From Amycolatopsis palatopharyngis (GTDB taxonomy: Bacteria; Actinomycetota; Actinomycetes; Mycobacteriales; Pseudonocardiaceae), in contig NZ_PQHZ01000005.1 of the NCBI RefSeq assembly GCF_003385185.1, forward strand, positions 62,001 to 126,000: DNA of 64,000 nt, written 5' to 3'. Position 1 is the stretch's first letter. The number at the start of each line of letters is the position of its first letter. Below, piece by piece: positions 1 to 16,353 of the stretch. Both the position numbers and the translations under genes were made by a program. The notes under the pieces were generated by a model. It was not told the DNA's origin. It searched no databases and saw only the letters and a list, made by a program, of their open reading frames with translations.

Positions 1-481
1 CACCTGGCGCGGCAACAACCACGTTCGCAGGTCCGTTGAATGCGGCGATACTTGCTTGAAGGTCGTCCCTGGCATTCAGCACGTCCTCGACCGCCTCCGC
101 GGACAAGCCCATCACCACAGTCATCGAACCTTCGACGGCATCCGTCAGCCGGGCCCGTTCCCGCACCAGTTCCAACCCGGTTGCGAAATCGAAGACACCC
201 GCCGCCTCGAGCGCGTTGTATTCGCCAAGACTGTGCCCCAAGTAAACATCCGCAGGGCCGTCCATCGCGCGCCTGGCGAGTGCGTTGACGACGTAGATCG
301 CGGGCTGGGAGAACCGGGTCCGACCCAGTCGCCCGCCCGGATCGCCGACGCAGAGCTCACGGATCGAATAGCCCAAGATCTCGTCCGCCTGTTCCACCAG
401 CTCCGGGAAACGGTCGAACAGCTCGGCGCCCATCCCCGTACGTTGAGTACCCTGCCCGGCGAAGAGAACCACCCGCGTCAT
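1..481 (-). CDS. Stand-alone malonyl-CoA:ACP acyltransferase (AT), 3' end beyond window edge
   Basis: This gene starts with ATG at 481 and 160 codons are visible before it runs off the left edge. The N-terminus MTRVVLFAGQGTQRTGMG holds the FabD-type GQGTQ motif, and GHSLGE near residue 80 is the nucleophile elbow with the active-site Ser. The start overlaps the stop of the upstream enoyl-CoA hydratase (ATGA), so it is the last visible gene of the 11-gene operon that begins at 8524. Family knowledge: such discrete ATs load malonyl or related units onto ACPs. In beta-branching cassettes a stand-alone AT often charges the donor ACP or serves a trans-AT system. A second AT lies at 8640. The substrate cannot be read from the visible part. 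Confidence 0.9.
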   Translation of the reverse strand, partial: MTRVVLFAGQGTQRTGMGAELFDRFPELVEQADEILGYSIRELCVGDPGGRLGRTRFSQPAIYVVNALARRAMDGPADVYLGHSLGEYNALEAAGVFDFATGLELVRERARLTDAVEGSMTVVMGLSAEAVEDVLNARDDLQASIAAFNGPANVVVAAPG

Positions 482-1233
482 GACCCCACCACCGGCCGGT
501 CGGCGTACAGCGCCTGGATCCGCCGTCTGGCCTCGGCACTGGAGATCGTCGCCTGATGGTCCGGAATCTCCCGCGCGTGCGCGGCCTGGGCCTGCCCGCC
601 CACCTGTTCGCGCAGCTGCGCCTTGAGCCGCTCGACGGCCTCACGCGGGGCCTGCGCGATGCGCAACGCGGTCCGCTGCGTCTGGGCGACAACGTTGCCG
701 TCCGCGGTCACCCGGACACCCGCGCCACGATCGGCGAGCTCGCGTCCGAGATAGCTGCGGCCCGAGTACAGCAGCTCTGTGCCCAGTGCCATGCCCAGCT
801 TGGCAGGCAGCAGGTACGTGGCTCCCAGCGCGGGCGTGAACCCGTAGGTGAGGAAGTTGGCGGCGTAGCGGGAGCTCTCGCTGAGCACGGTCACGTCGCA
901 GTAGAGCGCGAGGAGGAACCCGCCGCCAAGCGCATGTCCCTGTGCGGCGGCGAGCACCGGCACCGGGCAGCCGAGCACGGCGTTCAGAAACTCCCACACC
1001 CCGTCGACCCGGTGCTCTCGTGAGCCGAGCATCTGCTCGGCCGATCCTCCCGCACAGAAGATCTCGGGGAGTCCTTCCAGTACCACGGCTCGTACGTCCG
1101 GCGCGCCACCCGCCTGTTCCAGAGCCGCGATGGTCCCTGCACGCAGTTCGGGTGATAGCCGGTTCTGCCCGGTGGCGTCGTCCATCCGGACGGTCGCGAC
1201 GGGAGCGGCCATATCGAGCGTAACCACACTCAC
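478..1233 (-). CDS. Enoyl-CoA hydratase/isomerase-like ECH2 of a beta-branching cassette (PksI/BaeI-like decarboxylase)
   Basis: The protein has 251 aa and a crotonase fold. The GTG start at 1233 is coupled to the preceding gene by a GTGA overlap. QGHALGGGFLLAL gives the oxyanion-hole segment, and FLTYGFTPALGATYLLP is the sequence typical of ECH2 decarboxylases such as PksI of the bacillaene pathway, which it resembles over its length. In that family ECH2 decarboxylates the 3-methylglutaconyl-type ACP intermediate after ECH1 dehydrates it, leaving an alkyl branch at the former beta-carbonyl. The gene order HMGS, ECH1, ECH2 directly upstream supports this role. Which double-bond isomer forms is not predictable here. 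Confidence 0.85.
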   Translation of the reverse strand: MSVVTLDMAAPVATVRMDDATGQNRLSPELRAGTIAALEQAGGAPDVRAVVLEGLPEIFCAGGSAEQMLGSREHRVDGVWEFLNAVLGCPVPVLAAAQGHALGGGFLLALYCDVTVLSESSRYAANFLTYGFTPALGATYLLPAKLGMALGTELLYSGRSYLGRELADRGAGVRVTADGNVVAQTQRTALRIAQAPREAVERLKAQLREQVGGQAQAAHAREIPDHQATISSAEARRRIQALYADRPVVGS

Positions 1234-1961
1234 GCGATCAACCCCTGTTTCCGCAAACCGGACAGCCGCTCGTGAACCGCCTGGTCCGCCAGTCGTCTTC
1301 CGAGAACCTCCATGATCAGTTCGTCGCGCCGCACCGGAGGAGCCAGTTCGGCGTAGTACTCCTTGAGTGCGAGCAGCGCGGACGGATCGGCAGCTCGCAG
1401 CTTGCGCAGGATGCGCCGCAGCTCCGCCTCGTCGCCGTATACGTCGGCGAGGCCCATCGACACCGCTTCCGCGCCGGACAGCTCGCGCGCGGTCAGCGCC
1501 AGCCCGAACGCCGAGTGGTGGCCGGTCCGCCGCGCCAGCACGGGCAGGACCGCGGCGGGCACGAGGCCAAGCAGGACCTCGGTCATCCGGAACGTGGCCC
1601 GTTCCCCGGCAACCACCTGATCGCACGCCGCCAACAGGCCGACTCCGCCACCGAGTGCAGCCCCTTCCACGAGCGCGATCGTCACCAGGCGCGACGTGGC
1701 GATCCGATGAAGCAGATCACCGAGCGCAACGATCAGCCGGCGCCACGTGGTCTCGATCGCGTCCAGCTCCATCCCCGCGCAGAATGTGTCACCTCCGGCC
1801 GCGAGCACGAGTACCTGTACGGCGGCGGTGGACTCGGCATCGGCAAGCGCGTCGCCCAGTTCGGTGAGCATCTCCTCGGAGAGCCGATTGTGCGTATCCG
1901 GGCAGGACAACGTCAAACGCGCGACCGGCGGTCGCGTAATGTCCAGTTCCACTCGCTTCAT
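1230..1961 (-). CDS. Enoyl-CoA hydratase/isomerase-like ECH1 of a beta-branching cassette (dehydratase)
   Basis: The protein has 243 aa and a crotonase fold. The ATG at 1961 overlaps the HMGS stop (ATGA). EGAALGGGVGLLAACD is the oxyanion-hole region, and TEVLLGLVPAAV keeps the Glu followed by GLVPA that catalytic hydratases use. Family knowledge: ECH1 enzymes such as CurE and PksH dehydrate the HMG-ACP-type intermediate made by the HMG-CoA-synthase homologue. The position between HMGS and ECH2 in one translationally coupled string assigns it to that step. A catabolic enoyl-CoA hydratase is the alternative, but the context makes that unlikely. Confidence 0.83.
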   Translation of the reverse strand: MKRVELDITRPPVARLTLSCPDTHNRLSEEMLTELGDALADAESTAAVQVLVLAAGGDTFCAGMELDAIETTWRRLIVALGDLLHRIATSRLVTIALVEGAALGGGVGLLAACDQVVAGERATFRMTEVLLGLVPAAVLPVLARRTGHHSAFGLALTARELSGAEAVSMGLADVYGDEAELRRILRKLRAADPSALLALKEYYAELAPPVRRDELIMEVLGRRLADQAVHERLSGLRKQGLIA

Positions 1962-3190
1962 CGCCACTCGTAACCCCGATGGAATTTCTCGACTCCGGTC
2001 AGCACCAGCACATCGCCGTGCGCACGCGACGGCTCGGAATACTGGTCCCAAGCGGACAGATCGATCGTCCTGTCCGCCATGGGAATCAGGCATTCCCGCG
2101 CCCAAGGAAGTAGCTTCTCGTACTCGGTGAAGGAAATCTCGCGACGACGGCGAATCCGGCCCCCGATTTCCATTGCCGACAGCTCTTCTCGCGCGCCAGG
2201 GGTGACAACTCCGCTGAAGAACTCCGAAGCACAGCCCGAACCGTAGGAGTACAGGCCCAGCTTCGCGCCCGCGACGGACGGTTCGTGGTCGATCAGACTC
2301 GCAAGCGCGAGATATATCGACCCGGAACACAAGTTGCCAACCGCCCGTGCGTACTTCAGTGAAGGCCCGACACGCCGATTGAAGTCGGCCTCGATCATCT
2401 TGGGTGGTCCTGGTCTGTGCTCACGCATCAACTTCCGGTGCGCAGCCTTCACCATTCCCGGGAACGGGGTGTGCATGACCAAGTGGTCGAAGGTGGTGGC
2501 GAAATCGGTTTCCGGAGCCCGTTTCAGGTAGTCCGCGTAGCTTCCGGAAAGGCATTCAAGATAACTCAGCAACGAAAGATCGGGATCGACATAGTCGAGA
2601 TCCGGAGCAGGCCGTGCGGTATCCATCGTCTCGAAACTGTGCAGGCCATGGAGCCCCAGGTCCAGCCGGAGAATCTTCGGATCGCCGGAGATCAGCACCG
2701 CGACGGAGCCGTTGCCCATGGTCGGCTCGGCGTACTTCGCGCGCTCGTCCATCGGGCTGATATCGGTGGCGACAACCAGTGCCCGAGCTCGGGGATTGCC
2801 CTGCCCTGCCAAGTATCCGGCGGCCAACTGCAGCATGCCCGTGGCACCGTAGCAAGCTTGCTTGACCTCCATGATCCGGCAACGAGGGGAAAGGCCAAGG
2901 TATCGATGTGCGTAGGAAGCAATCGACTTGCTGTAGTCCACGCCGGACTCGCTCGAGGTGACCAAGACTTCGATAGTGTCCCTGTCCTCGCCAAGCGAGT
3001 CCACCAGGGGCCTTGCCGCGTTGACCGCATTCGTGACCGGGTCCTCCCACGGCAGTAGCACAGACCGGTTCTCCAGGCCGAGATTGCCGATCCGCTCTTG
3101 GTCCAGGCCACGTCCGACGAACAACTCCTCCACGGGAAGACGTGCGAAACCGCAGTAGGCGTTGAGGCTCTCGATGCCGATTGCTTCCAT
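1958..3190 (-). CDS. HMG-CoA-synthase-like beta-branching enzyme (HCS; LnmM/PksG family)
   Basis: The protein has 410 aa, full length for the family. Catalytic residues are visible: Glu81 in SSESGVD, Cys113 in EVKQACYGATGML, and His240 in DHLVMHTPFPG. Homologues in polyketide clusters (PksG, CurD, MupH, LnmM) condense an acyl group from a donor ACP onto the beta-keto group of an ACP-bound chain. The gene is flanked by the donor ACP (3190-3450) and both enoyl-CoA hydratases, with one- to four-base overlaps, so this is a complete cassette. Mevalonate-pathway HMG-CoA synthase is the alternative. No other mevalonate gene is present, and the neighbours are all PKS genes. Confidence 0.93.
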   Translation of the reverse strand: MEAIGIESLNAYCGFARLPVEELFVGRGLDQERIGNLGLENRSVLLPWEDPVTNAVNAARPLVDSLGEDRDTIEVLVTSSESGVDYSKSIASYAHRYLGLSPRCRIMEVKQACYGATGMLQLAAGYLAGQGNPRARALVVATDISPMDERAKYAEPTMGNGSVAVLISGDPKILRLDLGLHGLHSFETMDTARPAPDLDYVDPDLSLLSYLECLSGSYADYLKRAPETDFATTFDHLVMHTPFPGMVKAAHRKLMREHRPGPPKMIEADFNRRVGPSLKYARAVGNLCSGSIYLALASLIDHEPSVAGAKLGLYSYGSGCASEFFSGVVTPGAREELSAMEIGGRIRRRREISFTEYEKLLPWARECLIPMADRTIDLSAWDQYSEPSRAHGDVLVLTGVEKFHRGYEWR

Positions 3191-3450
3191 CAGTCGCTCT
3201 TCTCACCGTTCGAACTCAAATACTCGACCAGCGCACCGATATCGGGAATGGTGGCGAAAACCGAGATGGGGTCGGAGCGCTGGAGCCGGTGCAGCAGCAG
3301 GCTGATGATCTCCACCCGGTCCACCGAATCGGCGCCGAGATCCCGCAAGCTCTTGTCTCTCGTGATCTCGGCTGCGGGGAGGTCAGGCATAATATCGACG
3401 ATCACCCTTCGGATCGCGTCCTCCACATCGGTGGCACTGGGAAGACTCAT
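3190..3450 (-). CDS. Donor acyl carrier protein of the beta-branching cassette (LnmL/AcpK type)
   Basis: The ACP has 86 aa, with the phosphopantetheine Ser42 in DLGADSVDRVEIISL. The DSVDRVE signature is common in ACPs that partner with HMGS enzymes. Its start ATG follows the LnmK-like stop (TAATG) and its own stop overlaps the HMGS start (TGATG), so it is made together with its likely partners. By analogy with LnmL it would carry the propionyl (or acetyl) group presented to the HMGS. Confidence 0.88.
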   Translation of the reverse strand: MSLPSATDVEDAIRRVIVDIMPDLPAAEITRDKSLRDLGADSVDRVEIISLLLHRLQRSDPISVFATIPDIGALVEYLSSNGEKSD

Positions 3451-4394
3451 TACTCCTCCGAAACCAGATGGATCGCGGACACCGCGAGCAGCCGACCGGT
3501 GCCCTCCTCGCGTACGGTGACTTCGGCAATCTCGTCACCGGCCTCGGACTCGTGCCGCCACAGCTGTATCGCCAGAAAAAGACGTGAACTGCTGTCGGCG
3601 TTGCCGAAGTAGCCAAGTTTCTGATCGAGCACCTTCCGACCGAGAAAGCGCCGGTCACCCCGCCCGAGCTGCCGCCACAATCGCAGCAGGCCCGTGTCGA
3701 TGATCGAGAAGTAGGACGCGAAGTACACAAGTCCCACACCGTTGAAATCATGTACGAGATCAAGATCGTACGATGTGAAACAGGGCTCTGCCCGAAAGTA
3801 GCCGGGAATTCCACCTGGATGGAATCCGGCGTTCTTCCGCGCTCGGGAGGCAATTCCGCGCGGCGAGTACTGCTTGGGCAACGACGGCAGGTGCTCGAAA
3901 TGGAAGCCCGGCGGTGACGAACGCACGAGGTCGGCGTTGCTGTCCTCCCTGGACCGGGAGATCCACCGGTTGAAGTTCTCCACATACAGGCTGTCCGGCC
4001 GTGGTCGCTCGAAGAACTCGACCGGTTCGAACAGTTCGTCGCCGACATCGACCGGCGCGAGCCGGTGCAGGGTGAGCACCGACTCGCCACCGAAGTCGAA
4101 CACGCGCGAGGTCACCGTCAGCTCGTCGCCGAAGGTGAGCCCATGCGGATGTCGCTCGATACTGCCCAGCACGTGGTAGTAGTAAAACGACAGATAGGCG
4201 GGCAACCCGTCAGCGGTCCGCGCGTCGTAGACGTTGGTACCGCAGGTCGCTGCCACCGCCTCCCAGGTCCAGTCACCGAGCTGCGCGAAAATCGACGAGC
4301 TGCCCCCGCACATGTGCGGTGCGATCGTCACCCGCCGAACGACTGAACCGCCATCGGCGAGCACCGGCGCCCGCAGGATCGTTGGGGCTGTCAC
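3450..4394 (-). CDS. LnmK-family bifunctional acyltransferase/decarboxylase (double hot-dog fold)
   Basis: The protein has 314 aa. The GTG start at 4394 overlaps the stop of the upstream ACP (GTGA). Segments such as MCGGSSSIFAQLGDWTWEA, YLSFYYYHVLG and VYFASYFSIIDTG match what I know of LnmK, the leinamycin enzyme that takes methylmalonyl-CoA, loads it onto its ACP and decarboxylates it to propionyl-ACP. LnmK is of similar length and is encoded next to its ACP (LnmL) and HMGS (LnmM), as here. The inferred role is to make propionyl-S-ACP for the branch, so the HMGS would install a two-carbon-longer branch than acetate-using systems. The family assignment rests on recognition of conserved segments and context, not on an alignment. 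Confidence 0.8.
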   Translation of the reverse strand: MTAPTILRAPVLADGGSVVRRVTIAPHMCGGSSSIFAQLGDWTWEAVAATCGTNVYDARTADGLPAYLSFYYYHVLGSIERHPHGLTFGDELTVTSRVFDFGGESVLTLHRLAPVDVGDELFEPVEFFERPRPDSLYVENFNRWISRSREDSNADLVRSSPPGFHFEHLPSLPKQYSPRGIASRARKNAGFHPGGIPGYFRAEPCFTSYDLDLVHDFNGVGLVYFASYFSIIDTGLLRLWRQLGRGDRRFLGRKVLDQKLGYFGNADSSSRLFLAIQLWRHESEAGDEIAEVTVREEGTGRLLAVSAIHLVSEE

Positions 4395-4651
4395 GACGGG
4401 CCAGTCGCGCGTTCGCTGATGTAGCTTACGAGCTTGTTCAGCGTCGGGTGCTCGAACACGGCCTCGACCAACTCGGTCAGGTTGTATTTGGCGTTGATCA
4501 CCGAGACGAGTTCGACGCCGAGTACCGAGTCGAGGCCGAGATCCCGGAACGTGGTGTCGTCGTCGATCTCGGAGACGTCCAGATACAGGACCTCCGCAAG
4601 GTGTTCCCGCAACTCGTCCCGGATAGCGGAAATCTCCAGCGAAACAGTCAT
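4391..4651 (-). CDS. Acyl carrier protein, second ACP of set A
   Basis: The ACP has 86 aa, with Ser42 in DLGLDSVLGVELVSV. A strong ribosome-binding site (GAGGAG) precedes the ATG at 4651. The sequence looks more like ACP domains of modular PKSs than like the aromatic-type ACPs at 7137 and 14871, so it is probably the carrier on which a chain is modified rather than the main elongation ACP. It lies between CLF-A and the LnmK-like gene. The Trp that flags many beta-branching acceptor ACPs (DSxxxxxW) is absent: Ser+6 is Leu. Confidence 0.88.
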   Translation of the reverse strand: MTVSLEISAIRDELREHLAEVLYLDVSEIDDDTTFRDLGLDSVLGVELVSVINAKYNLTELVEAVFEHPTLNKLVSYISERATGPS

Positions 4652-4669
4652 TTCTCTCCTCAGCTCTTC

Positions 4670-5875
4670 TCATCGGCCCAATATCATCGCCGAGTTGTAG
4701 CCGCCGTTGCCGCGAGCGAGTACCAGCGCGATCCGCAGGTTGGCCATGCGCGGCTCGCCACACACAAGATCGATCTCGTACTCCGGCGGCATGTCAATGC
4801 GCTCCACCGCGGGGATCACGCTGTCGCGCATGGCAAGCAGGGCACAGGCGACGTCCAGCGGACCACCTCCGGCATACAGCCGTCCGACGAGTGCCTTGGG
4901 TACGGTGACCGGGACCGCCAAGGGCCCGAACACCTCGGCGATCGCTGCGGCCTCGACCCGGTCGAGTTCGGGAATCCCGCCGGCATCGGCGAAAACGACG
5001 TCGACGGTGCCCGGCTCCAACCCGGCGTCGGCCAACGCTTGTCGGATCGCCCTGCCCAACGTGGAAGGGCGGCCCGAGCCCGGCTTGGGATCGAAGGTGG
5101 AAGCATGTCCCAGTAGCGAGCCGTAAACAGTCGCTACGCCGCGGGCACGGGCCGACTTCTCCGCTTCGAGTACGAGATAGGCCCCACCTTCACCCGGTAC
5201 ATAACCGGCCGCGTCGCTGCCAAAAGGCACGTAGGCACGACGCGGATCGGCTTCGGTGCTGATCCGGCCGCTCGCCAGGTGTGACACCCAGCCCCATGGG
5301 TCGTAGGACGACTCGACACCTCCGGTGACCGACAGCGAGATCCCACCTCGGATCATCCGCCGGGCGTGTGCCAGGGCGTCCAGCCCGCCTGCCTGCTCAG
5401 CGACGATCACACTTCCAGGCCCGCGCATTCCGTGCCGAATTGAGATCTGGCCCGTGTTGGCCGCGTTGAACCAGGCAAAGGATTCGTAAACACTGACGTA
5501 CTCGGGCCCTTTCGTCCACAGCTTCTGGATCTCCCTGTGGGTGAATTCAAAACCGCCGGTCGCGTTGGAGCTGATCACGCACATGTCCGAGTCCGCAAAG
5601 GACCTCGTATCGACCTTGGCACTGGCCAGCGCCTGCTCGGCCGCGATCAGCGCAAGCCGGGTGACGCGATCGGTCTGTGGCAGCAGCCGGCTCGAGAGGT
5701 ACTGTTCGGCATTGAAATCCGGGATCTGACCGGCGAGCCGGGCCGGATAACCCGTGGGATCGAAACGTTCGAGCTCTCTGATGCCGCTACGTTTCTCAAC
5801 CGTGGCGGACCAGTACTCCTCCGCACTCATACCATTGGGCGCCACCACACCCAGCCCGGTGAACACCGGGTTCAT
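4670..5875 (-). CDS. Type II PKS chain length factor, KS-beta (CLF-A)
   Basis: The protein has 401 aa and a ketosynthase fold. The catalytic Cys is replaced by Gln161 in [16 protein letters not shown], the hallmark of a chain length factor. The ATG at 5875 overlaps the KS-A stop (ATGA), as usual for KS/CLF pairs that form heterodimers. It sets chain length together with KS-A. It is a close paralogue of CLF-B at 15148 with the same length and shared blocks such as [11 protein letters not shown] and the NTGQISIR segment. Confidence 0.95.
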   Translation of the reverse strand: MNPVFTGLGVVAPNGMSAEEYWSATVEKRSGIRELERFDPTGYPARLAGQIPDFNAEQYLSSRLLPQTDRVTRLALIAAEQALASAKVDTRSFADSDMCVISSNATGGFEFTHREIQKLWTKGPEYVSVYESFAWFNAANTGQISIRHGMRGPGSVIVAEQAGGLDALAHARRMIRGGISLSVTGGVESSYDPWGWVSHLASGRISTEADPRRAYVPFGSDAAGYVPGEGGAYLVLEAEKSARARGVATVYGSLLGHASTFDPKPGSGRPSTLGRAIRQALADAGLEPGTVDVVFADAGGIPELDRVEAAAIAEVFGPLAVPVTVPKALVGRLYAGGGPLDVACALLAMRDSVIPAVERIDMPPEYEIDLVCGEPRMANLRIALVLARGNGGYNSAMILGR

Positions 5876-7140
5876 GCTTTCGCTCCCTGAAGCCGCCGCA
5901 GCACCATCGCACTCTGGTAACCGCCGAAACCGCTGCCGACCGTGAGCGCGGCGCCGACGGTGTGGTCACGGGCCACGAGCGGGACATAGTCCAGGTCGCA
6001 CTCGGGGTCCTTCTCGTGCAGGTTCGCCGTCGGCGGTACGACCCCGTGCTCGATGGCGAGCGCGCAGGCCGCGATCTCGATCGAGCCGATGGCGCCCAGC
6101 GAATGGCCGATCATCGATTTGATCGAGCTGACCGGTGTCCGGTACGCGCACTCGCCGAGCGCACGTTTGAACGCGGCCGTCTCGTGCCGGTCGTTCTGTT
6201 TGGTGCCGGACCCGTGCGCGTTTATGTAGTCGAGGTCCTCGCCTGGCATCCGGGCTTCATCGAGGGCGCCCCGGATAGCCTCGGCCATCTCCTTGCCGTC
6301 CAACCGGAGACCGGTCATGTGGTAGGCATTGCACCGCGTCGCGTACCCGGCGATCTCGGCGTAGGTCCGTGCACCCCGGCGACGTGCGTGCTCGTACTCC
6401 TCGATGACGAACATCGCGGCTCCCTCGGCAAGTACGAAACCATTGCGTGACGCGTCGAACGGCCGCGCCGCGTGCTCAGGATCGTCATTGCGCGGCGTCG
6501 TCGCCTTGATCGCGTCGAAGCACGCTGCGGCCAGCGGCGAGACCGCGGCCTCCGTCGCACCGGCGAGGACGACGTCCGCGCTGCCCTCACTGATCAATTG
6601 ATGGGCGTAGCCGACGGAATCGATCCCGGACGTACAGCCCGTGGACAGCAGCCCGACCGGCCCCTCCGCACCCACCTCCCAGGCGAGTTCGGTCGCGATC
6701 GTGGTCGGAGTGAGGTGACCGAACAGGTGCGGCGAGGCGTAGTGGTGGTCCACCAGCCACTCCCGGCCGGAGTCCGACAGCACCAGATACTCCTGTTCCA
6801 GGCTGGTCGCGGCACCGACCGCGCTGCCAACGCTGACCCCCAGTCTGCCCAAGTCCACCGAGCCGAGATCGATCCCACTGTCCTCTATAGCCTCGCGGGC
6901 GCTGACCACGGCGAACTGGGTGACCCTGTCCATCCGGCGGATCTGCTGTGGCCGCAGGCCGTGCAGCTGAGCGTCGAAGTCACATTCGCCGGCCACCTGG
7001 GAGCGGAAGGCCGCCGCATCAAAGGCTGTGATCCTGCGGGTCGCGGTCCGACCCGAGGTGAGCAGATCCCAGAACGGCTTCGTCCCGTCGCCTCCTGGGG
7101 CCAGCACCCCGATTCCGGTGATGATCGAGCGGCGCTTCAT
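5872..7140 (-). CDS. Type II PKS ketosynthase, KS-alpha (KS-A)
   Basis: The protein has 422 aa. The active-site Cys169 lies in LLSTGCTSGIDSVGYA, and the two catalytic His regions are [15 protein letters not shown] and [14 protein letters not shown]. It forms a heterodimer with CLF-A for decarboxylative Claisen elongation of malonyl-ACP. The start ATG at 7140 overlaps the ACP-A stop. Sequence features are those of aromatic-type KS enzymes (GCTSGIDS). The overall scaffold is very similar to KS-B at 16350, with Cys at the same residue number, which points to duplication of the minimal PKS or joint acquisition. Confidence 0.96.
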   Translation of the reverse strand: MKRRSIITGIGVLAPGGDGTKPFWDLLTSGRTATRRITAFDAAAFRSQVAGECDFDAQLHGLRPQQIRRMDRVTQFAVVSAREAIEDSGIDLGSVDLGRLGVSVGSAVGAATSLEQEYLVLSDSGREWLVDHHYASPHLFGHLTPTTIATELAWEVGAEGPVGLLSTGCTSGIDSVGYAHQLISEGSADVVLAGATEAAVSPLAAACFDAIKATTPRNDDPEHAARPFDASRNGFVLAEGAAMFVIEEYEHARRRGARTYAEIAGYATRCNAYHMTGLRLDGKEMAEAIRGALDEARMPGEDLDYINAHGSGTKQNDRHETAAFKRALGECAYRTPVSSIKSMIGHSLGAIGSIEIAACALAIEHGVVPPTANLHEKDPECDLDYVPLVARDHTVGAALTVGSGFGGYQSAMVLRRLQGAKA

Positions 7141-7373
7141 GCTGCCTGCGCGAGGAGTTCGAGCAGCAATCGAGGAGTTTCGACCAGCGCAATGTCTTCG
7201 TCGGAGATCTCGATCCCGTACTCGTGCTTGATCCGGGTGGCGGTCTCCATAAGTGCCAGCGAGTCGTAGCCGAGCTCGGCGAACGGCGTGTCGTGAATAT
7301 CACCGTGCAGATCGGCGCTCTCATCCTCACCGGCGCATTCCGTGAGAATCCTCCGGAGATCGTCGATGGTCAT
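7137..7373 (-). CDS. Type II PKS acyl carrier protein (ACP-A)
   Basis: The protein has 78 aa from ATG 7373, chosen over upstream in-frame codons because GGAGGGTGGAG lies just before it. The phosphopantetheine Ser38 is in ELGYDSLALMET, typical of aromatic type II ACPs. It starts with TIDDLRRIL, as ACP-B does, so the two are paralogues. It is the elongation carrier of the KS-A/CLF-A pair, and its stop overlaps KS-A (ATGA). Confidence 0.93.
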   Translation of the reverse strand: MTIDDLRRILTECAGEDESADLHGDIHDTPFAELGYDSLALMETATRIKHEYGIEISDEDIALVETPRLLLELLAQAA

Positions 7374-7444
7374 CTGGCTCCACCCTCCAGTTTCGTGCTC
7401 GATACTCGCCGACTCTGCGAGCACCCACTACAGTCACACTTGAA

Positions 7445-8524
7445 CTACAGCGGAATGCCGCTACTCTTCACTTGCCCTCCTTGGCTTTCGGCGATTGTTT
7501 CCGGATACCAGTCCGGCACACAGCCGATCTCCAGCACAGCGGCGGACCAGGTGAACCCCCCACCGACGCCCATCAGCATCACCCGCTGACCCGGCCGAAG
7601 CCTCCCGCTCTCCAGGAGGTGGGCGATTCCGGCAAACTGGTCGCCAGCACCGAGGTGACCCACGCCGCGGCTCCACGACCACAACGTGCGGTCACGGTCG
7701 ATGCCGAACCGGCGAAAGTAGTTCACGTCCAGCCTGCGCCTGCCGAAATGCGGCAGCACGAACCAATCGATGTCGCCCAGCTTCACTTCGGCCTCGTCGA
7801 GCGCGTACTCGACCGACTCGGCGTGCCGGGACGCCATCAGCGCGACCACCCGCTGCCCGGCCCGGCCACGAACGTAGGCCCTCGTGGTCTCGTCGATGTC
7901 GACCGGAACGCGCGTGGCCAGCGGCGCGTCGCCGAACGGGTCGTCCCCGCGGTGCATCCGTTCCAAAGCCGGCTCGCCAACGGTCACCAGCGAACGCAGC
8001 CGGGCGAATCCCGATCCTCTGGCAAGCACCAGCGCAGTCGCGCCGTCGGCGAAGACGGTGCCTGGATCCGTTCTCCAGCGGTCGATTCCCGGTGCACAGA
8101 AACGATCCGAAGTGGAGAGCAGTGCCGCCGCACCGCCGGTCGCTGTCAGGTACGCGGCCGCGAGTTCGAGTGCTGCCATGCCACCGTTGGAAGTCTGCCG
8201 CAGCTCGATGGCCGGCGACCGGTTTCCCACCGCGTGATGCTGGATATAGGACGCTGGAGCCCACATGTCGTGGCCTTGGTAATACGAGCAGGCGTGCAGG
8301 ACCAGTGCGATGTCCCCGGACGCGCAACCAGACCTTTCCAAGGCCGCGTGCGCGGCGGCGACTCCCATTTCCGGCGGGGAATCCTTTGCTATGGTCACCC
8401 CAGTCACCTGTGCCCGCCGTACCGCCTCCGCCTCGGCGAGGCCGAGCGCCACCGCGACCTCGGCGGGCATGGCGGGCGGCAGCCAACTCGCGGCCGCCCG
8501 CAGATACACGTCATCCCAGAGCAC
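7445..8524 (-). CDS. KSIII-like (DpsC/CerJ-type) acyltransferase-ketosynthase with Ser in place of the active-site Cys
   Basis: The protein has 359 aa and a FabH-like thiolase fold. GTG start at 8524 follows GGGAGG. The usual nucleophile position reads LRQTSNGGMAAL, so Ser112 stands where FabH has Cys, as I recall for DpsC of the daunorubicin pathway. The usual Asn motif near the C-terminus reads GHLGAGDQ, with Asp, as in CerJ-like enzymes. Such proteins either select a starter acyl-CoA (propionyl for DpsC) or transfer acyl groups to hydroxyls. It is the first gene of the minus operon and faces a DpsD-like AT across a 115-bp divergent region. A starter-loading role is the best guess. Confidence 0.87.
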   Translation of the reverse strand: MLWDDVYLRAAASWLPPAMPAEVAVALGLAEAEAVRRAQVTGVTIAKDSPPEMGVAAAHAALERSGCASGDIALVLHACSYYQGHDMWAPASYIQHHAVGNRSPAIELRQTSNGGMAALELAAAYLTATGGAAALLSTSDRFCAPGIDRWRTDPGTVFADGATALVLARGSGFARLRSLVTVGEPALERMHRGDDPFGDAPLATRVPVDIDETTRAYVRGRAGQRVVALMASRHAESVEYALDEAEVKLGDIDWFVLPHFGRRRLDVNYFRRFGIDRDRTLWSWSRGVGHLGAGDQFAGIAHLLESGRLRPGQRVMLMGVGGGFTWSAAVLEIGCVPDWYPETIAESQGGQVKSSGIPL

Positions 8525-8639: not shown

Positions 8640-9638
8640 ATGCGATCGGGAAGCCGCGACGTGGTGCTCCTCTTTCCCGGCCAGGGTGCACAGCACAACC
8701 GCATGGCCGAGGGACTCTACGGTCATGATCCGGAGTTCACCCAAACCGTGGACACCGTGCTCGCCATGTTCTCCGACGGCGACCAGCTGCGTACGGATTG
8801 GCTGTCGGATGCGCCATCCCTGGCGATCGAGGACGTTCGCAGGGCACAACCTCTGCTGTTCACCATCGGCTACGCACTCGGGCGTATGGTGCTGAGCTGG
8901 GGTGTCCGTCCGGCGGCGCTGCTGGGCCACAGTGTCGGCGAACTGGTCGCCGCGACGCTCGCCGGGGTCTTCACCCCGCGCGCCGCCGTTGACCTGCTGA
9001 GCGATCGGGTCACCAAACTCGCAGGCACCCCGCCTGGCGGCATGCTGACCGTGTCCGCACAGGAGTCCGACCTGGCCTCGGTACTGGTCCGGCATCCTCG
9101 CGTCTCGGTCGGCGCGATCAACGCGCCACGGCAGATCGCGCTCACAGGCTTTCAGGCAGAACTCGGCGCAGCCGAGGAAGACCTGCGCGCAGCGGGTTAC
9201 ACCGTGCGTCGCGTCGCGGCCGGAAAGGCCTTCCACAGTCCGGCACTCGCCGGAGTCTTCGCCGGTCCGTATCCGATCGACGAGCACATCATGCACAGTC
9301 CACGGATCCCCCTGTGGTCGGCGTTCACCGCCAACCGGGTACTCACTCCCGACCCCTATTCCTGGGCGGGCCACCCCGCGGAACCGGTGCTCTTCTGGCC
9401 CACTTTGGAGAAGATCATGGCCGAAGGCCCCTGCCTGCTCGCAGATCTGGGACCGGGCCAGGGACTCGCCACCCTGGCGCGGCGCCATCCGGACGTTCGC
9501 TCCGGACGGAGCGCGGTGACCGCCCTGTTGCCGGTACGGGACCGCGACCCAGCGGTGGAGCGGGAAACCGGTGAACGTGCCCGTCAGATCCTGCTGGCGT
9601 GCCAGCGACATCAGAATCCACATGGGAGAACAAGGTGA
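8640..9638 (+). CDS. Stand-alone acyl-CoA:ACP acyltransferase (AT, DpsD-like context)
   Basis: The protein has 332 aa. FPGQGAQ at the N-terminus, GHSVGE (nucleophile Ser) and KAFHSP (catalytic His) define an acyltransferase of the FabD/PKS-AT family. The C-terminal part (LGPGQGLATLARRHP) is full length. It starts a plus-strand operon whose next gene starts inside its stop (GTGA). The neighbouring KSIII suggests a DpsC/DpsD-like starter pair, although it could equally charge one of the four ACPs. The extender specificity is not predictable by eye. Confidence 0.9.
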   Translation: MRSGSRDVVLLFPGQGAQHNRMAEGLYGHDPEFTQTVDTVLAMFSDGDQLRTDWLSDAPSLAIEDVRRAQPLLFTIGYALGRMVLSWGVRPAALLGHSVGELVAATLAGVFTPRAAVDLLSDRVTKLAGTPPGGMLTVSAQESDLASVLVRHPRVSVGAINAPRQIALTGFQAELGAAEEDLRAAGYTVRRVAAGKAFHSPALAGVFAGPYPIDEHIMHSPRIPLWSAFTANRVLTPDPYSWAGHPAEPVLFWPTLEKIMAEGPCLLADLGPGQGLATLARRHPDVRSGRSAVTALLPVRDRDPAVERETGERARQILLACQRHQNPHGRTR

Positions 9639-10372
9639 ACGAGAGACGCGTAGCCCTGATCACCGGATCTTCGTCCGGTATCGGTGCCGAGGTGGCCAGG
9701 AAGCTCTCCGCCAGTGGCCTACATGTCGTGATCAACTCCGCCCGCTCGACCGAAGCCGGTCAGGAACTCGCAGCGTCGCTGCCCGAGGCAGTGTACGTTC
9801 GCGGTGACATCTCCAAAAAGGACGAGGCGGAGAACCTCGTGGCCACCGCGGTCGAACACTTCGGCAGGCTGGACGTGCTCGTCAACAATGCAGGCGTGTC
9901 CCGTCCGATCCCACACGCCGACCTCGCCTCCGCGGATCTCGCGGTCTGGCAGGAAATTTTTGGGGTCAACGTGTTCGGCACCTGGCAGACGACGGTCGCT
10001 GCGATACCTGCGCTACAGGAAAGCGGGAACGCCGCGGTCGTCAACATCTCGTCGATCGCCGGCAGCAGACCCGCGGGCAGTTCGATTCCTTACGCTGTCA
10101 GCAAGGCGGCCATCGAGCACATGACGCGCTTGCTCGCCAACACCGTGGGCCCTGAGGTCAGGGTCAACGCCGTCGCCCCCGGGCTGATCGAGACGCCGTG
10201 GACGCAGGACAAGGATTTCTTCAAACCGATCGCCGAACAGGTCCGCCAGCGAACGCCACTGCGGCGGGTCGGCCTGCCCTCGGACGTCGCCGAAGCAGTG
10301 CACGCGCTGATCTTCTCGACCTACACCACCGGTCAGGTACTGCTTGCCGACGGCGGCGCGCACCTCATCTGA
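9635..10372 (+). CDS. Short-chain dehydrogenase/reductase, FabG-like ketoreductase
   Basis: The protein has 245 aa. GTG start at 9635 follows GGGAGAA and overlaps the AT stop. TGSSSGIGAEVA is the NADP(H)-binding glycine motif, NNAGVS the central motif, and SSIAG followed by YAVSK gives the Ser-Tyr-Lys catalytic set. The protein ends in LADGGAHLI. It differs from the ActIII-type reductase at 14062, so it probably reduces a beta-keto group on the short set A chain or acts in tailoring. The operon partners are the AT and an F420-type oxidoreductase. Confidence 0.9.
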   Translation: MNERRVALITGSSSGIGAEVARKLSASGLHVVINSARSTEAGQELAASLPEAVYVRGDISKKDEAENLVATAVEHFGRLDVLVNNAGVSRPIPHADLASADLAVWQEIFGVNVFGTWQTTVAAIPALQESGNAAVVNISSIAGSRPAGSSIPYAVSKAAIEHMTRLLANTVGPEVRVNAVAPGLIETPWTQDKDFFKPIAEQVRQRTPLRRVGLPSDVAEAVHALIFSTYTTGQVLLADGGAHLI

Positions 10373-10406: not shown

Positions 10407-11441
10407 ATGCGCCTAGGCGCGAATCTCATTTACCAGGGAGCCGGCGAGCTGGCGCGTGCCGCCGAAGCCCTCGGCTACGATCTCGTGCTCGCCGCCGAGG
10501 GCTACCGGGCCGATGCTGCGAGCGTGCTCGGCCTTGTCGCCGGGCAGACCGAGCGCATCGGTCTCGCCTCCGGTGTCATGCAGATCCCCGCCCGTCCCCC
10601 GGGCACCGCGGCGCTCACCGCTGCCACCCTCGATGCGCTGAGCGAAGGTCGGTTCCGGCTCGGCCTCGGTGTCTCCAACCCGCATGTCTCCGACGGCTGG
10701 TACGGAGTCCGGTTCGACCAGCCGCTCGGCCGCACCCGGGAGTACGTCGACATCGTCCGCAGGGCATTGGCGGGCGGTCCGGTCCGCTACTCGGGTACGC
10801 ACTTCTCCCTTCCTTCGTACGGCAAAGAGGACGCGCCGCTGCACCTGTTCACCGAGCGCCCGAGCACGCAGATCCCGCTGTACCTGGCCGCTGTGGGTCC
10901 GAAGAGCCTCCAACTCGCCGGTGAGCTGGCCGACGGCTGGCTGAGTGGTTTCACGACGCCGGAGCACGTGGCGAAGTCGGTGGCCGAGATCCGCAGCGGC
11001 GCCGAGCGTGCCCGTCGCGACCTCGACGGGTTCGCGATCGTCCCGTTCGTGGCGATGCAGGTCGGTGACGACCTCAGCGAGGCGGCGAACGCCTTACGTA
11101 CGCACTACACGTTTTTGCTCGGTGTCGGTGACCCGAAGGACAACTTCTACTGCGGCCTCGCCCGGCAGATGGGCTTCGAGAAGGAGATCGCTGTGTTTCG
11201 CGATCTCCTCATGTCCGGCGACCGGCCCGCCGCCGCGGCCGCGGTCCCGCTGGACTTCATCGACCGCACCGCCCTGATCGGCCCGCTCCCTCGTGTCGCC
11301 GAGCGGATGACAGCGTTCGCCGAGGCGGGTGTGACGACGCTCAGCATCATGGTCTCGGCCAACGTCACCGGTACTGAGGGCCGATTGGAAATCCTGCGGC
11401 AGGCCGCACAGGCACTCGAACTGTCCGGCGTCGACGGCTGA
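10407..11441 (+). CDS. Luciferase-like (LLM) F420-dependent oxidoreductase
   Basis: The protein has 344 aa. AAGGAGG lies 7 bases before ATG 10407. The sequence shows LLM-class features: MRLGANLIYQGAGELARAAE at the start, the EALGYDLVLAAEGY strand-helix, GRFRLGLGVS and VDIVRRAL. These enzymes use F420 (or FMN) to reduce or oxidise small molecules. Several type II PKS clusters contain one for ring reductions. A rare TTA codon sits at 11094-11096 (codon 230), so translation may depend on the bldA tRNA. The substrate is unknown. Confidence 0.85.
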   Translation: MRLGANLIYQGAGELARAAEALGYDLVLAAEGYRADAASVLGLVAGQTERIGLASGVMQIPARPPGTAALTAATLDALSEGRFRLGLGVSNPHVSDGWYGVRFDQPLGRTREYVDIVRRALAGGPVRYSGTHFSLPSYGKEDAPLHLFTERPSTQIPLYLAAVGPKSLQLAGELADGWLSGFTTPEHVAKSVAEIRSGAERARRDLDGFAIVPFVAMQVGDDLSEAANALRTHYTFLLGVGDPKDNFYCGLARQMGFEKEIAVFRDLLMSGDRPAAAAAVPLDFIDRTALIGPLPRVAERMTAFAEAGVTTLSIMVSANVTGTEGRLEILRQAAQALELSGVDG

Positions 11442-12085: not shown

Positions 12086-12086
12086 T

Positions 12087-13034
12087 ATGACCGAGGCCCA
12101 GATTCACGGCGACTACGCCGAACACGACATCGTGCTCAACGCCCCGCCGTCACGGGTGTTCGACCTGATCGCGGACGTGAGGCGCTGGCCGCTGATGTTC
12201 TCCCCGTGTGTGCATGCCGAAATTCTCGACCGCGGCCCCGATTCAGACCGGATCCGGCTCTGGGCACGCACTGGTGACTCCGTGCGCAGCTGGACCTCAC
12301 GGCGCACACTGAACGAGGCCGCGACACGAGTCGACTTCGAACAGGAGAACAGCAAGCCCCCGCTGGCTGCGATGGGTGGTCACTGGCGGGTCGACGGGGA
12401 GCGCCTGGTGCTCGCACATCACTGGGCCCTGACGGACCCAACTCCGCAAAGCGAGAAATGGGCCTCCGACGTCCTGGACGCCAACAGCAACGCCGAGACC
12501 GCCGCTGTGCGGGAATGGGCGGAATACGGCGACGACTTCGACGATATCGTGTTCTCCTTCAGTGACGAGGTCGCGATTCCCGCGAAAGCACAGGCGGTCT
12601 ATGACTTCCTACATCGTTCGGACCTGTGGCCGGAGCGCCTGCCGCACGTGGTCTCGCTCAACCTGCAAACTGACGCCGCGTCCGAGGCCGCCGGCGGCGT
12701 CGAGGTGCAGACAATGACAATGGAGACCAGGGCCCACGACGGCGGTGCGCACACCACCCGTTCGATCCGACTCTGCTGGCCACACGAGCGCATTCTGTAC
12801 AAGCAGACTGTCGTACCGCACGGCCTCCAAGCGCACACTGGGGAATGGCTGATCGTCCCGGACGAGAACGGTGTCCGGGTGCAGGCCACACACCGAGTCG
12901 CGCTTGACCCGAAACAGATCGAAGACACCTTCGGTGCGGGGACGACACTCGCGCAGGCGCGCACCAAGACCGCGGAACTGCTGCGCCGCAACAGCATTGC
13001 CACGCTCGGGCGGGCTCTCGAGTTCCTGACGTGA
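12087..13034 (+). CDS. Didomain polyketide aromatase/cyclase (SRPBCC fold)
   Basis: The protein has 315 aa with two START/SRPBCC-like halves: about residues 6-150 (HDIVLNAPPSRVFDLIADV, then WPLMFSP) and 160-310 (EVAIPAKAQAVYDFLHRSDL, then WPERLPHV). This is the layout of didomain aromatase/cyclases that fold and dehydrate the first ring after C9 ketoreduction. Start ATG 12087 was chosen; an in-frame TTG lies 6 bases upstream. Its presence together with the ActIII-like reductase at 14062 argues that set B makes a C9-reduced aromatic polyketide. Confidence 0.92.
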   Translation: MTEAQIHGDYAEHDIVLNAPPSRVFDLIADVRRWPLMFSPCVHAEILDRGPDSDRIRLWARTGDSVRSWTSRRTLNEAATRVDFEQENSKPPLAAMGGHWRVDGERLVLAHHWALTDPTPQSEKWASDVLDANSNAETAAVREWAEYGDDFDDIVFSFSDEVAIPAKAQAVYDFLHRSDLWPERLPHVVSLNLQTDAASEAAGGVEVQTMTMETRAHDGGAHTTRSIRLCWPHERILYKQTVVPHGLQAHTGEWLIVPDENGVRVQATHRVALDPKQIEDTFGAGTTLAQARTKTAELLRRNSIATLGRALEFLT

Positions 13035-13220: not shown

Positions 13221-14027
13221 CTACCGGCTGCGGCGCCAGTACACGCTGAACTCGTCGATCTCCTTGATGGGGTCGCCCTCGATGCCTTCCTTGCGTCGGA
13301 ACTCCTGCACTGCCTCGCGGCAGGACGGGATCATGTAGTCATCGATGATGACGAAGCCGCCGACCGAGAGCTTTGGGTAAAGGTGCACAAGCGCATCCAT
13401 TGTGGACTCGTAGAGATCACCGTCGAGCCGTAGCACGGCCAGTTGCCGGACGGGCGCGGCGGGCAGGGTGTCGCAGAACCAACCGGGCAGGAACTCCACC
13501 TGCTCGTCCAGTAGGTCGTAGCGCCGAAAGTTCTCCCGCACGGTTTCCTCGGAGACGCCGAGTACTTCATTGAATTCGTGCAGGTTGAGCTCCAAGTCCA
13601 GGGGATGGCTCGACTCGTCGACCTTCGGGATCCCCTCGAAGGAGTCGGCGAGCCAGACCTTGCGGTCTTTGATTCCGTAGGCCTTGAGGAGTCCGCGGGC
13701 AAAAATGCAGGTACCGCCGCGCCAGACGCCGGTCTCGATGAAGTCGCCAGGGACGCGCTCCGCGATCACCTGCTTCAAACAGCTCTCCACGTTGTCCAGC
13801 CTGATCATGCCGATCATCGTGTGCGCGACGCTCGGCCAGTCGGCTCCTGAGTTCCTTGCCTCTTTGTCGTGCGTGGCGTCATCGAATATCGGATTGGGGA
13901 TCGCTGGGTCTTCGTAGATGACGTTTACCAGTACCTTCTTCAGCAAGGTGAGGTAAAGTTCTCTGCCGGTCTCTGTGAGGTCTTGCAACTGGGCTCCCTT
14001 GATCTGGTGAACAACCCGCCGTGTCAT
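13221..14027 (-). CDS. TylF/MycF-type SAM-dependent O-methyltransferase
   Basis: The protein has 268 aa. [10 protein letters not shown] is the SAM-binding loop, [10 protein letters not shown] follows, and [15 protein letters not shown] with VIIDDY gives the metal-binding Asp residues of the macrocin O-methyltransferase family. These enzymes methylate hydroxyls of sugars already attached to polyketides. The gene lies downstream of the set B minimal PKS and ketoreductase on the same strand, after a 34-bp gap. A sugar or aglycone hydroxyl is the likely target. Confidence 0.9.
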
Positions 14028-14061
14028 GGTTGTGTTCGCGCCGGTTCCGGCAACTCCTTGC

Positions 14062-14844
14062 TCAGTAGTTGCCGAGACCGCCGCAGACGTTGAGGGCCTG
14101 CGCCGTCACGGCGTTGGCGCCGGAGCTGACCAGGTAGTCGACCATCGCGGCCACCTCTTCGGGCACAACGTAGCGGCCGATCGGGACCCGAGCGCTGACA
14201 CGCTCCTTGACCTCGTCCAACGACACGTCCCAGATACTCGAGTACGCCTGACGCACCCGCTCCGCCATCGGCGTCTCGACGAATCCAGGACATACCGCGT
14301 TCACTGTGACACCGGTCTTGGCCAACTCCAGCCCCAGCGCCTTGCTGAAGCCGACCACGCCGTGCTTGGCGGCCGAGTACGGCGCGCCATGGAGCACGCC
14401 TTGTTTTCCGCCGGTAGAGGCGATGTTGATGATCCGCCCCCAGCCCCGATCCAGGATCCCGCCGTTGTTCAGCACCTCCTTGGTCATCACGAAGACACTG
14501 TTGAGGTTCGTGTTGATCACGTCGAACCACAGCTCGTCCGCGATATCCTTGGTGACCCCGCCACCGGACCGTCCCGCGTTGTTGATCAGGATGCTGATGG
14601 GCCCGAAAGCATCCTTCGCCGAACGGACCAGCGACCGGATATCGTCAGCTTCCGTGACGTCGCAGGTCTGGCCGTCTACCTCATAGCCTGCGTCCCGCAG
14701 GGACTTGACGGTCTGCGCCAGCCTGTCCGCGTTCCGTGCTCCGATGTAGACCTTCGCACCACCGCGGGCCAAGCTTCTGGCGATCTCCAGTCCTATACCG
14801 CTGGTGGCACCCGTCACGAGTGCGACCTGGTCAGCCTCAGCCAT
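14062..14844 (-). CDS. ActIII-type polyketide ketoreductase (C9 reductase)
   Basis: The protein has 260 aa. [12 protein letters not shown] binds [18 protein letters not shown] is the motif seen in ActIII-like reductases, IASTGG and YSAAKHG carry the catalytic Ser-Tyr-Lys, and [15 protein letters not shown] matches the substrate-loop region of the family. Such enzymes reduce the C9 keto group of the nascent poly-beta-ketone after its first cyclisation. It lies between ACP-B (14871) and the O-methyltransferase, so it belongs with set B. Confidence 0.94.
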
Positions 14845-14870
14845 GTTTCCTCCGAACTCTCTACTTCGTC

Positions 14871-15131
14871 TCAGCTCGTCGTGCCTACGAGGTCGTGCAC
14901 CCTGTCGAGCATCGCCCGTGGTGTGTCCAGATCACCGAGCTCGTCATCCGGGATCGCGACGCCGAACTCTCTGCCGATCACCGCCGCGGTCTCCATCAAC
15001 GCAAGCGAGTCGTAACCGAGATCCTCGAAAGGCAGGTCGAGGATGTCCCCGTTCAGGTCGACTTCATCGTCGGATCCCGCGCATGCGGCGAGTATCCGGC
15101 GCAGATCGTCGATGGTGATCCCGTTGCTCAT
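14871..15131 (-). CDS. Type II PKS acyl carrier protein (ACP-B)
   Basis: The ACP has 86 aa from ATG 15131, with the phosphopantetheine Ser42 in DLGYDSLALMET. It is a paralogue of ACP-A: both share TIDDLRRIL near the start and the same active-site block. It lies 16 bases after the CLF-B stop and serves KS-B/CLF-B. Confidence 0.94.
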   Translation of the reverse strand: MSNGITIDDLRRILAACAGSDDEVDLNGDILDLPFEDLGYDSLALMETAAVIGREFGVAIPDDELGDLDTPRAMLDRVHDLVGTTS

Positions 15132-15147
15132 CCGCTTCTCGTTCCTC

Positions 15148-16353
15148 TCAGTCATTGAACTCGCGCAAGACGACTGCCGCGTTGAATCCCCACTTGCCGC
15201 GGGCCAGTACGAGCGCGTTGCCGACCGGCCCGTACCTTGGCTCACCCCGGACCAGGTCGATCCCGTATGCGGACGGGACATCCGCTACTTCTGGTGTCGC
15301 GGGGATGACACCATCCCTTATGGACAGCAAGGCGGCCACGACGTCCAGCGGCCCGCCCCCGGAGAACAGGCGTCCGGTCAACACCTTGGGCGCGGTCACC
15401 GGCACGCCGTTGTGGCCGAAGACGCCGCGGATCGCCTCGGCTTCCTGACCATCCAACTCGGGTATCCCAGCCGCATCGGCGAAGACCACGTCGACCGCGG
15501 CGGGCGTCAGCCCGGCATCCATCAACGCCAGTTCGGCCGCCCTGCGCAGACCCGGCGGACGCGGGGACCCCGGCGCTGGGTCGAAGGTCGAGGCATAGCC
15601 TGCGATCTCGCCGTATACCTGACCTGCCCCCCGGCCGCGCGCGGTGGCGACATTCTCCGTGACCAGGATCGCGCCACCTTCACCTGGCAGATAACCGTCG
15701 GCGGCACTGTCGAAGGGCAGGTAACCGGTCGAACTCACCCGACCACCAGAAAGGTGCGACACCCAGCCCCAGGGGTCGAAGGCCGAGTCGACGCCGCCGG
15801 CGAGAACCAACCCGGTACCGTCTCGGACGGTACGCCGGGCGTGGCCGAGCGCGTCCAGGCCGCCCGCCTGCTCGGCCACCAGCGCCTTGCTCGGGCCGCG
15901 CATCCCGTTCCGGATCGAGATCTGGCCGGTATTGACCGCGTAGAACCATGCGAACGACTCGTACACACTGACGTACTGCGGCCCCTTCTCCCACAGCTTG
16001 GCGAATTCCTTGTGCGTGAACTCGAAGCCGCCGAGCGCGTTGGAGGTCACCACGCCCATGTCGTAATCGACCAAGGTGGACGGATCCACGCCCGCGTCGG
16101 AGAGCGCCCAGTCGGCGGCGGCGAGCGCGAACTGGGTGGAGATATCGGTCTGTGGCAGCAGTTTTTTCGGGATGTGTTCTTTGGCGACGAAGTCGTGTAC
16201 CTGTCCAGCCAACCGCGCCGGATACTTCGACGAGTCGAAGCGGGTCAGCACATCGATCCCGCTGCGACTGTCGACCGTGGCCTTCCAGAAGTCCTCGGCC
16301 CCCAGCCCGTTCGGGGCCACCACACCGAGTCCGGTCACCACTGTCCTGGTCAT
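15148..16353 (-). CDS. Type II PKS chain length factor, KS-beta (CLF-B)
   Basis: The protein has 401 aa from ATG 16353, the start that overlaps the KS-B stop (ATGA) and gives the same length as CLF-A. Gln162 in [16 protein letters not shown] replaces the catalytic Cys. It pairs with KS-B to fix chain length of the second polyketide chain. Its many identities with CLF-A suggest a common origin. The residues lining the end of the chain tunnel would have to be compared to predict different lengths. Confidence 0.95.

Follow-up and report, generated by a model that had tools for sequence, protein, structure and literature searches.

A predicted HMGS beta-branching cassette in an operon with an aromatic type II polyketide synthase in Amycolatopsis palatopharyngis

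The window analysed here, a stretch of 64,000 nucleotides from Amycolatopsis palatopharyngis (positions 62001-126000 of contig G000:C77, accession NZ_PQHZ01000005.1), opens with a minus-strand operon in which the genes of a 3-hydroxy-3-methylglutaryl-CoA synthase-like (HMGS) beta-branching cassette stand beside those of an aromatic type II polyketide synthase (PKS). Judged from the sequence, the operon probably joins the two systems, with a predicted role for the cassette in making a short, branched acyl primer. The gene order is not a chance arrangement: apart from the acyltransferase gene AT1, it is colinear in two other species and is found split into two blocks in two more loci. An accident of one genome is rejected as an explanation, the core being found in four other genomes.

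Organization of the operon

In the 5' to 3' direction, the operon encodes a DpsC-like ketosynthase III (KSIII), an acyl carrier protein (ACP1), a ketosynthase (KS2) with its chain length factor (CLF2), a second carrier protein (ACP2), an LnmK-type acyltransferase/decarboxylase (LnmK), a predicted donor carrier protein (ACPD), HMGS, two enoyl-CoA hydratase-like enzymes (ECH1 and ECH2), the acyltransferase (AT) AT1 and then a further ketosynthase (KS), KSI. The eleven genes that the initial annotation had assigned to one minus-strand operon are all present, in the same order and on the same strand, and the operon extends beyond the window, the edge of which cuts AT1. Overlaps had been claimed for most neighbours; across the 11 junctions of the 12 genes, KSI included, nine overlap by 1-4 bases (4 bases at AT1/KSI), and the remaining two have gaps of 71 bases (KSIII/ACP1) and 18 bases (CLF2/ACP2), the starts of ACP1, LnmK, ECH1 and ECH2 having been chosen from overlaps and homology.

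The type II minimal PKS and KSIII

The closest solved relatives of KS2 (5872..7140) and of CLF2 (KSbeta; 4670..5875) are by far the actinorhodin (act) KS (1tqy_A, 642 bits) and CLF (1tqy_B, 523 bits), the next solved structures reaching 317 and 187 bits, respectively. KS2 is an aromatic KSalpha with an intact active-site Cys (motif GCTSGID), CLF2 carries Gln at the active-site position (VAEQAGG), and ACP1 (7137..7373, start set by homology; PF00550), which is 58% identical to ACP3 of a second minimal PKS in the window, completes the set of a type II minimal PKS. Because the act proteins are so clearly the nearest solved relatives, a trans-AT or modular origin of KS2 is ruled out; the initial annotation had set a grouping of this KS with trans-AT modular KS domains as the outcome that would speak against its proposal, and KS2 and CLF2 proved instead to be of the actinorhodin kind. 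At the position of act CLF Phe116 (the numbering here and below being what we take to be that of act CLF), Ile is found in CLF2 in all four loci aligned, whereas CLF1 of the second minimal PKS keeps Phe; the gate residues of CLF2, Phe/Thr/Ile versus Phe/Thr/Phe in act, are too little to predict chain length.

The KSIII protein (7445..8524) has DpsC (4xs7/5wgc; 332/330 bits) as its nearest solved relative, with weaker matches to CerJ (234 bits) and ChlB3 (193 bits). Ser replaces the Cys of FabH (RQTSNGG) in all four loci aligned, as expected for a DpsC-type enzyme, which is predicted to use an acyl primer, and the gene adjoins ACP1-KS2-CLF2 in each of the five loci read.

The beta-branching cassette

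Among solved structures, HMGS (1958..3190) is best matched by 8s81, CurD (5kp5) and PksG (4yxq), and it contains the Glu/Cys/His triad of the PksG/CurD type as Glu81, Cys113 and His240, which are invariant across 23 aligned sequences and which we take to be catalytic. The ECH2 protein (478..1233), a predicted PksI-type decarboxylase, exceeds the cut-off of NF005496 (224.5 versus 215 bits) and has PksI (4q1k) as its best PDB match, with CurF next, placing it by sequence with the PksI/CurF type, while ECH1 (1230..1961), a predicted PksH-like dehydratase, has NF005498 as its best model. The LnmK protein (3450..4394) is of the methylmalonyl-CoA:ACP acyltransferase/decarboxylase type, with 264 bits against TIGR04098 (cut-off 100), 306 bits against the LnmK structures 6x7l/4hzn and an equivalent of LnmK Tyr62, presumably a functional residue, in all four loci aligned.

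Two carrier proteins (both PF00550) belong to the cassette. The predicted donor, ACPD (3190..3450), keeps its position between LnmK and HMGS in five loci, and the predicted acceptor, ACP2 (4391..4651), is a type-I-like carrier with a part of the type I PKS model NF045894 as its best NCBIfam match (39 bits). No decarboxylating KS, with Cys replaced, is found among the KS genes of the operon, in which KSI and KS2 keep Cys and CLF2 has Gln; LnmK is present where usual cassettes have this decarboxylase, as in leinamycin.

KSI (-2058..-370, negative coordinates being to the left of the window; G000:C77:59942-61630) is a discrete, type-I-like KS of 562 amino acids that matches the KS part of NF045894 with 426 bits, retains its Cys motif and two His motifs and has the 7zma PKS as its nearest solved relative. 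KS-AT linker domains are detected, and beyond the KS and this linker remnant Pfam finds no further domain, so that the protein is not a multidomain type I loading protein. Acyltransferases are encoded both in the operon, by AT1 (1..481, on to -373 outside the window, minus strand), which is FabD-like with the motifs GHSLGE and GPFHT, and beside it, by AT2 (8640..9638, plus strand), which is type-I-like (PF00698; AT region of NF045894) with the motifs GHSVGE and AFHS and is 56-66% identical to counterparts in Streptomyces solincola, S. xanthii and the Streptomyces genome G579. We take GPFHT and AFHS to indicate malonyl-type enzymes.

Recurrence in other genomes

When 84,980 species genomes were scanned with an HMGS alignment and the best 80 of 407 relatives were kept, the cassette was found beside an aromatic KS/CLF in at least two of these 80 loci, those of Saccharopolyspora shandongensis and Streptomyces solincola; the count is a lower bound because the loci reach at most 10 kb to each side, and several are shorter. 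In both species the series KSIII-ACP1-KS2-CLF2-ACP2-LnmK-ACPD-HMGS-ECH1-ECH2-KSI is colinear with the window and is without AT1. On a plasmid of S. xanthii the genes form two blocks, KSIII-ACP1-KS2-CLF2 and ACP2-LnmK-ACPD-HMGS-ECH1-ECH2-KSI, about 14 kb apart, and the identical two blocks are separated by about 16.5 kb in G579. Across these four loci the proteins share 61-80% (HMGS), 52-65% (ECH1), 60-73% (ECH2) and 60-75% (KSI) identity with those of the window. The main contig of G579 has HMGS and KS2 matches at each end (C1:300225 and C1:8231136), in opposite orientation, like a terminal inverted repeat.

The draft S. solincola genome contains a single close KSalpha (84%), which is KS2, the next being 44% identical, and KS1, the KS of the second minimal PKS in the window, was not found in this draft; this suggests that KS1 is not needed. 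Upstream of the S. solincola cluster (L096:4599-11691) lies a 2209-aa type I PKS open reading frame (ORF) with only general PKS-type NCBIfam matches, and beside it is a 152-aa ORF without an NCBIfam match, which to us reads like an enediyne-type thioesterase.

Related units also occur apart from aromatic KS genes. A plasmid of S. globisporus (NZ_CP108665; L121/L122) carries an operon KSI-ACP2-ACPD-KS-HMGS-ECH1-ECH2-AT, with HMGS and KSI at 41% and 50% identity, an AT to which AT1 is 50% identical, and no LnmK; a KS2 search of 50 kb and of the whole 1,045,373-base plasmid record (not the chromosome) matched only the two KS of that operon, at 26-31% (31% and 28% in the whole record), and thus no aromatic KS. 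The extra KS of this unit has Ser at the expected place of Cys, as judged by eye, and is read as the usual decarboxylase, whose place LnmK would take in the window. The S. globisporus operon, which possibly represents a small branched-acid pathway of its own, continues with oxidoreductase- and SDR-like ORFs; judged by eye, a cytochrome-P450-like ORF adjoins it and transposase-like ORFs lie around it.

Within the genus of the window, genome G033 (L115/L116, joined coordinates 11866-21510) has the set ACP2-LnmK-ACPD-HMGS-ECH1-ECH2, with HMGS at 56% identity. This set adjoins two discrete KS genes (36-37% identical to KS1) and, by eye, an adenylation-like ORF, which suggests that the branching genes also serve something else; no KSI match was found within the 40 kb read, and an oxidoreductase of the locus resembles that of S. 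globisporus. Wide vertical inheritance in the genus is not supported, HMGS at 50% identity or above giving three matches (50-57%) in two of 59 other relatives.

Association of the cassette with one KS lineage

A class-wide sample of 394 genomes gave HMGS at E<=1e-100 in five, one of them being that of the window, and no aromatic KS occurs in the other four HMGS loci, as covered by stretches of about 4 kb, or of 20 kb for G301 and G307. A Streptomyces sample gave HMGS at the same threshold in 25 of 392 genomes, and a KS2 search was run on these 25 and four others (29 genome handles, of which G301 and G810 share the same places). Three of the 29 have an HMGS at 60% identity or more (G002, which is S. 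solincola; G579; and G553, whose coordinates match the S. xanthii plasmid). These are loci already named above rather than additional ones, and each has a KS at 77% identity or more no farther than about 20 kb away; no KS above 71% was found in the other 26. Among plasmid records, only the S. xanthii plasmid has HMGS (of 49) and KSI (of 1170) above 60%, and it is also the best KS2 match (76.7%), the others among the best 60 of 371 reaching at most 72.1%.

In a protein database, HMGS and KS2 are linked on at least seven contigs (57855, 15282, 136905, 65002, 29589, 11801 and 21372 bases), HMGS and KSI on at least 14, and KS2 and KSI on at least two more (405145 and 477049 bases). These links use equal contig size as a proxy, together with organism names where given, among the best 120 relatives per protein in order of similarity to those of the window, and would therefore miss a more distant KS.

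The lineage of KS2 was examined in a tree of 43 of the 120 listed KS2 relatives, eight KS read from DNA and the act KS. All 14 KS2-type rows tied to a cassette (five labelled from DNA and nine from contig matches) fall in one 21-row branch (bootstrap 100, SH-aLRT 99), and the 31 rows outside it are unlabelled. For seven rows of the branch no partner was observed; five of these are on contigs of at most 5.4 kb, and P0122 and P0124 are not. The KS1-type KS of the window, S. shandongensis and G579 were left unlabelled; counted as linked, they lower the figure to 14 of 17 rows inside the branch, all three lying outside it and the first two grouping with the act KS. In a quick tree of 75 of the 120 relatives, 12 labelled rows, two of which duplicate the KS2 of the window and of S. 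shandongensis, likewise fell inside a 21-row branch; the 60 rows outside included no labelled one, KS1 rows again being unlabelled. Equally strong clustering was obtained in 0 of 500 label shufflings in each tree, a figure that close relatives inflate.

Other genes of the cluster

To the right of AT2, the plus strand encodes a predicted SDR-family ketoreductase (KR1; 9599..10372; 69-80% in four other loci), an LLM-class F420-dependent-type oxidoreductase (10407..11441; under NCBIfam cut-offs; 68-82% in four other loci) and an aromatase/cyclase (12087..13034; PF03364, PF10604). The second minimal PKS, assigned from sequence and tree, follows on the minus strand (13221..17615) with a TylF-type O-methyltransferase, a ketoreductase (KR2), ACP3, CLF1 and KS1. 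KS1 is 71% identical to KS2, yet groups with the act KS; S. shandongensis also has a KS1, which is 84% identical. Deoxyaminosugar and glycosyltransferase genes occupy 17810..26472 and encode the glycosyltransferase GT1, an RmlC-like protein, a predicted N-acting methyltransferase, a DegT aminotransferase, a 2,3-dehydratase and the glycosyltransferase GT2, the last five of which have 71-79% counterparts in S. solincola. Two SnoaL-like proteins (11583-12125, by Pfam; 27740-28213, by eye) and a metallo-beta-lactamase-fold protein (28220-29293, by Pfam) are also encoded in the cluster. Its product is likely an antibiotic-like compound; no named product that was considered fitted the cluster, and none is claimed.

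A predicted route to a branched primer

In the route proposed here, KSI together with AT1 or AT2 would condense malonyl units on ACP2 to give acetoacetyl-ACP2, while LnmK would convert methylmalonyl-CoA to propionyl-ACPD. HMGS would then join the alpha-carbon of the propionyl group to the beta-keto group of acetoacetyl-ACP2, after which dehydration by ECH1 and decarboxylation by ECH2 would yield 3-methylpentenoyl-ACP2, with its beta-ethyl branch. Transfer or condensation of this group into the ACP1/KS2/CLF2 cycle would fall to the DpsC-like KSIII, and reduction and cyclisation of the chain and attachment of a methylated deoxyaminosugar would follow. The 3-methylpentenoyl structure follows from family chemistry, and other beta-keto substrates would give other branches.

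The cassette is read as a primer maker because it has its own KSI and a type-I-like ACP2, because its block stands apart from the KS/CLF in two loci and because a related unit is found on a plasmid record without an aromatic KS; the resemblance of KSIII to DpsC, the priming KS of daunorubicin, also counts for this role, as does the draft S. solincola genome, in which KS2 is the one close KSalpha. We lean, by a narrower measure, towards the wider proposal of a separate aromatic type II PKS lineage organised around HMGS chemistry, in which a portable ACP2-LnmK-ACPD-HMGS-ECH1-ECH2-KSI unit would make a beta-ethyl-branched primer and a DpsC-like KSIII would feed it to a dedicated KSalpha/CLF clade.

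Several observations weigh against the primer route or its wider form. All of its steps derive from protein families, and the cluster is known from genes alone; ECH1 (149 bits, cut-off 250) and ACPD (51 bits against its best model, NF005502, cut-off 79) remain under the NCBIfam cut-offs; AT1 is not found in the loci of the four relatives with a KS/CLF, nor AT2 in the S. shandongensis stretch; and a KS1-type KS, outside the KS2 branch, lies 12-33 kb from the cassette in the window, S. shandongensis and G579, which the model leaves unexplained. ACP2 also lacks the Trp flag six residues after Ser, with Leu in four of the five loci aligned and Val in S. globisporus; the acceptor ACPs of leinamycin, virginiamycin and ripostatin are likewise described as lacking it in the portion of the source used here (PMC7618002). 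Finally, KSI and HMGS occur together on contigs of Micromonospora profundi and Amycolatopsis magusensis for which the 120 listed KS2 relatives include no KS on a contig of equal length, and the branching block may serve other systems too.

The initial annotation had read the cassette as acting on the chain built by the KS/CLF. Its assignment of the cassette to an aromatic type II PKS operon stands, given the act-like KS2 and CLF2 and the single KS2 branch, but alkylation of the poly-beta-ketone on ACP1 or ACP2, which would leave the ethyl group on the ring system itself, now appears unlikely. That ACP2 immediately follows CLF2 within the operon of the window and of two relatives would suit such a reaction, as would a KS2 lineage that tracks the cassette and the Ile of CLF2 at act position 116, unlike CLF1; set against these are the block's own KSI and type-I-like carrier, its distance of 14-17 kb from the KS/CLF in two loci and the related plasmid block without an aromatic KS. 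It is also rather improbable that the branched acyl group is no starter at all and is added later to the sugar or aglycone. Such an addition would suit the sugar genes and the two glycosyltransferase genes of the cluster, and CerJ and ChlB3, the weaker matches of KSIII, are KSIII-like acyltransferases in tailoring, but KSIII is nearer to DpsC and adjoins the minimal PKS genes wherever its locus was read. Least probable is a pathway in which only LnmK and ACPD matter, supplying a propionyl starter as in lomaiviticin while the HMGS and ECH genes stay idle; the lomaiviticin enzyme LomC is presumably similar to LnmK. Lomaiviticin does obtain its propionyl starter through this bifunctional AT/decarboxylase, according to the sections of the report drawn on here (PMC5321127), but HMGS, ECH1, ECH2 and KSI are all conserved in four other loci.

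Comparison with known systems

Compared with the branched primer unit predicted here, the leinamycin system (LnmK/L/M/F) shares an LnmK-type AT/decarboxylase, a donor ACP, HMGS and a methylmalonyl-derived branch, as far as the excerpted sources describe it (PMC9570651, PMC7618002), as well as an acceptor ACP without the Trp flag. In leinamycin, however, the cassette belongs to a type I line of the AT-less kind and gives a carboxylated branch, whereas the window has a PksI-type ECH2, a discrete acceptor ACP and a KS/CLF as partner. By sequence, the HMGS and ECH2 of the window belong to the families found in the PksG-I and CurC-F cassettes, and its ECH1 and ACPD are nearest to the expected models; unlike in those cassettes, no KS decarboxylase is seen in the operon, LnmK being present instead, and the host is not a modular line. 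Daunorubicin resembles the window in combining a KSIII with a Ser nucleophile, DpsC, with an aromatic KS/CLF, but DpsC takes its propionyl primer from CoA, whereas the window encodes a whole primer-making unit. Hybrid type I/II priming is known for hedamycin, as for kidamycin; both use multidomain type I loading proteins, in contrast to the discrete KS, AT and ACP and the predicted beta-branch of the window. In kidamycin, the starter that type I PKS chemistry supplies to the type II aromatic PKS is not acetate, as the consulted part of the source reports (PMC10646177). Lomaiviticin is similar in that LomC acts on methylmalonyl-CoA in a type II aromatic pathway, but the available text gives propionyl itself as the starter and mentions no HMGS or ECH steps (PMC5321127).

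The initial annotation knew of no aromatic type II system with a full cassette, and literature searches of open-licence papers, mostly of titles and abstracts, likewise found no aromatic KS/CLF system with an HMGS cassette among the papers listed. In the main text, as far as available, of a 2025 review of type II PKSs, the starter lists contain no HMGS-built unit, and HMG and beta-branch are absent (PMC12664062). The 'beta-branching' type II KS class of NaPDoS2 was considered as a precedent and set aside, since, in the part of the source used, it denotes the decarboxylating KS of HMGS cassettes and not an aromatic KSalpha (PMC9582728). Aromatic type II PKSs with non-acetate primers are thus already known, and a primer built by HMGS would be the new part.

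If the proposal is true, this would be the first known case of HMGS beta-branching that serves a KS/CLF. The choice of starter unit accounts for much of the diversity among aromatic polyketides, and a self-contained, evidently portable block for a branched acyl-ACP would open a further way to make such starters, would explain orphan clusters in several actinobacterial genera and would be a candidate part for aromatic polyketide engineering, with the KS2 branch as a sequence marker for finding further such systems.

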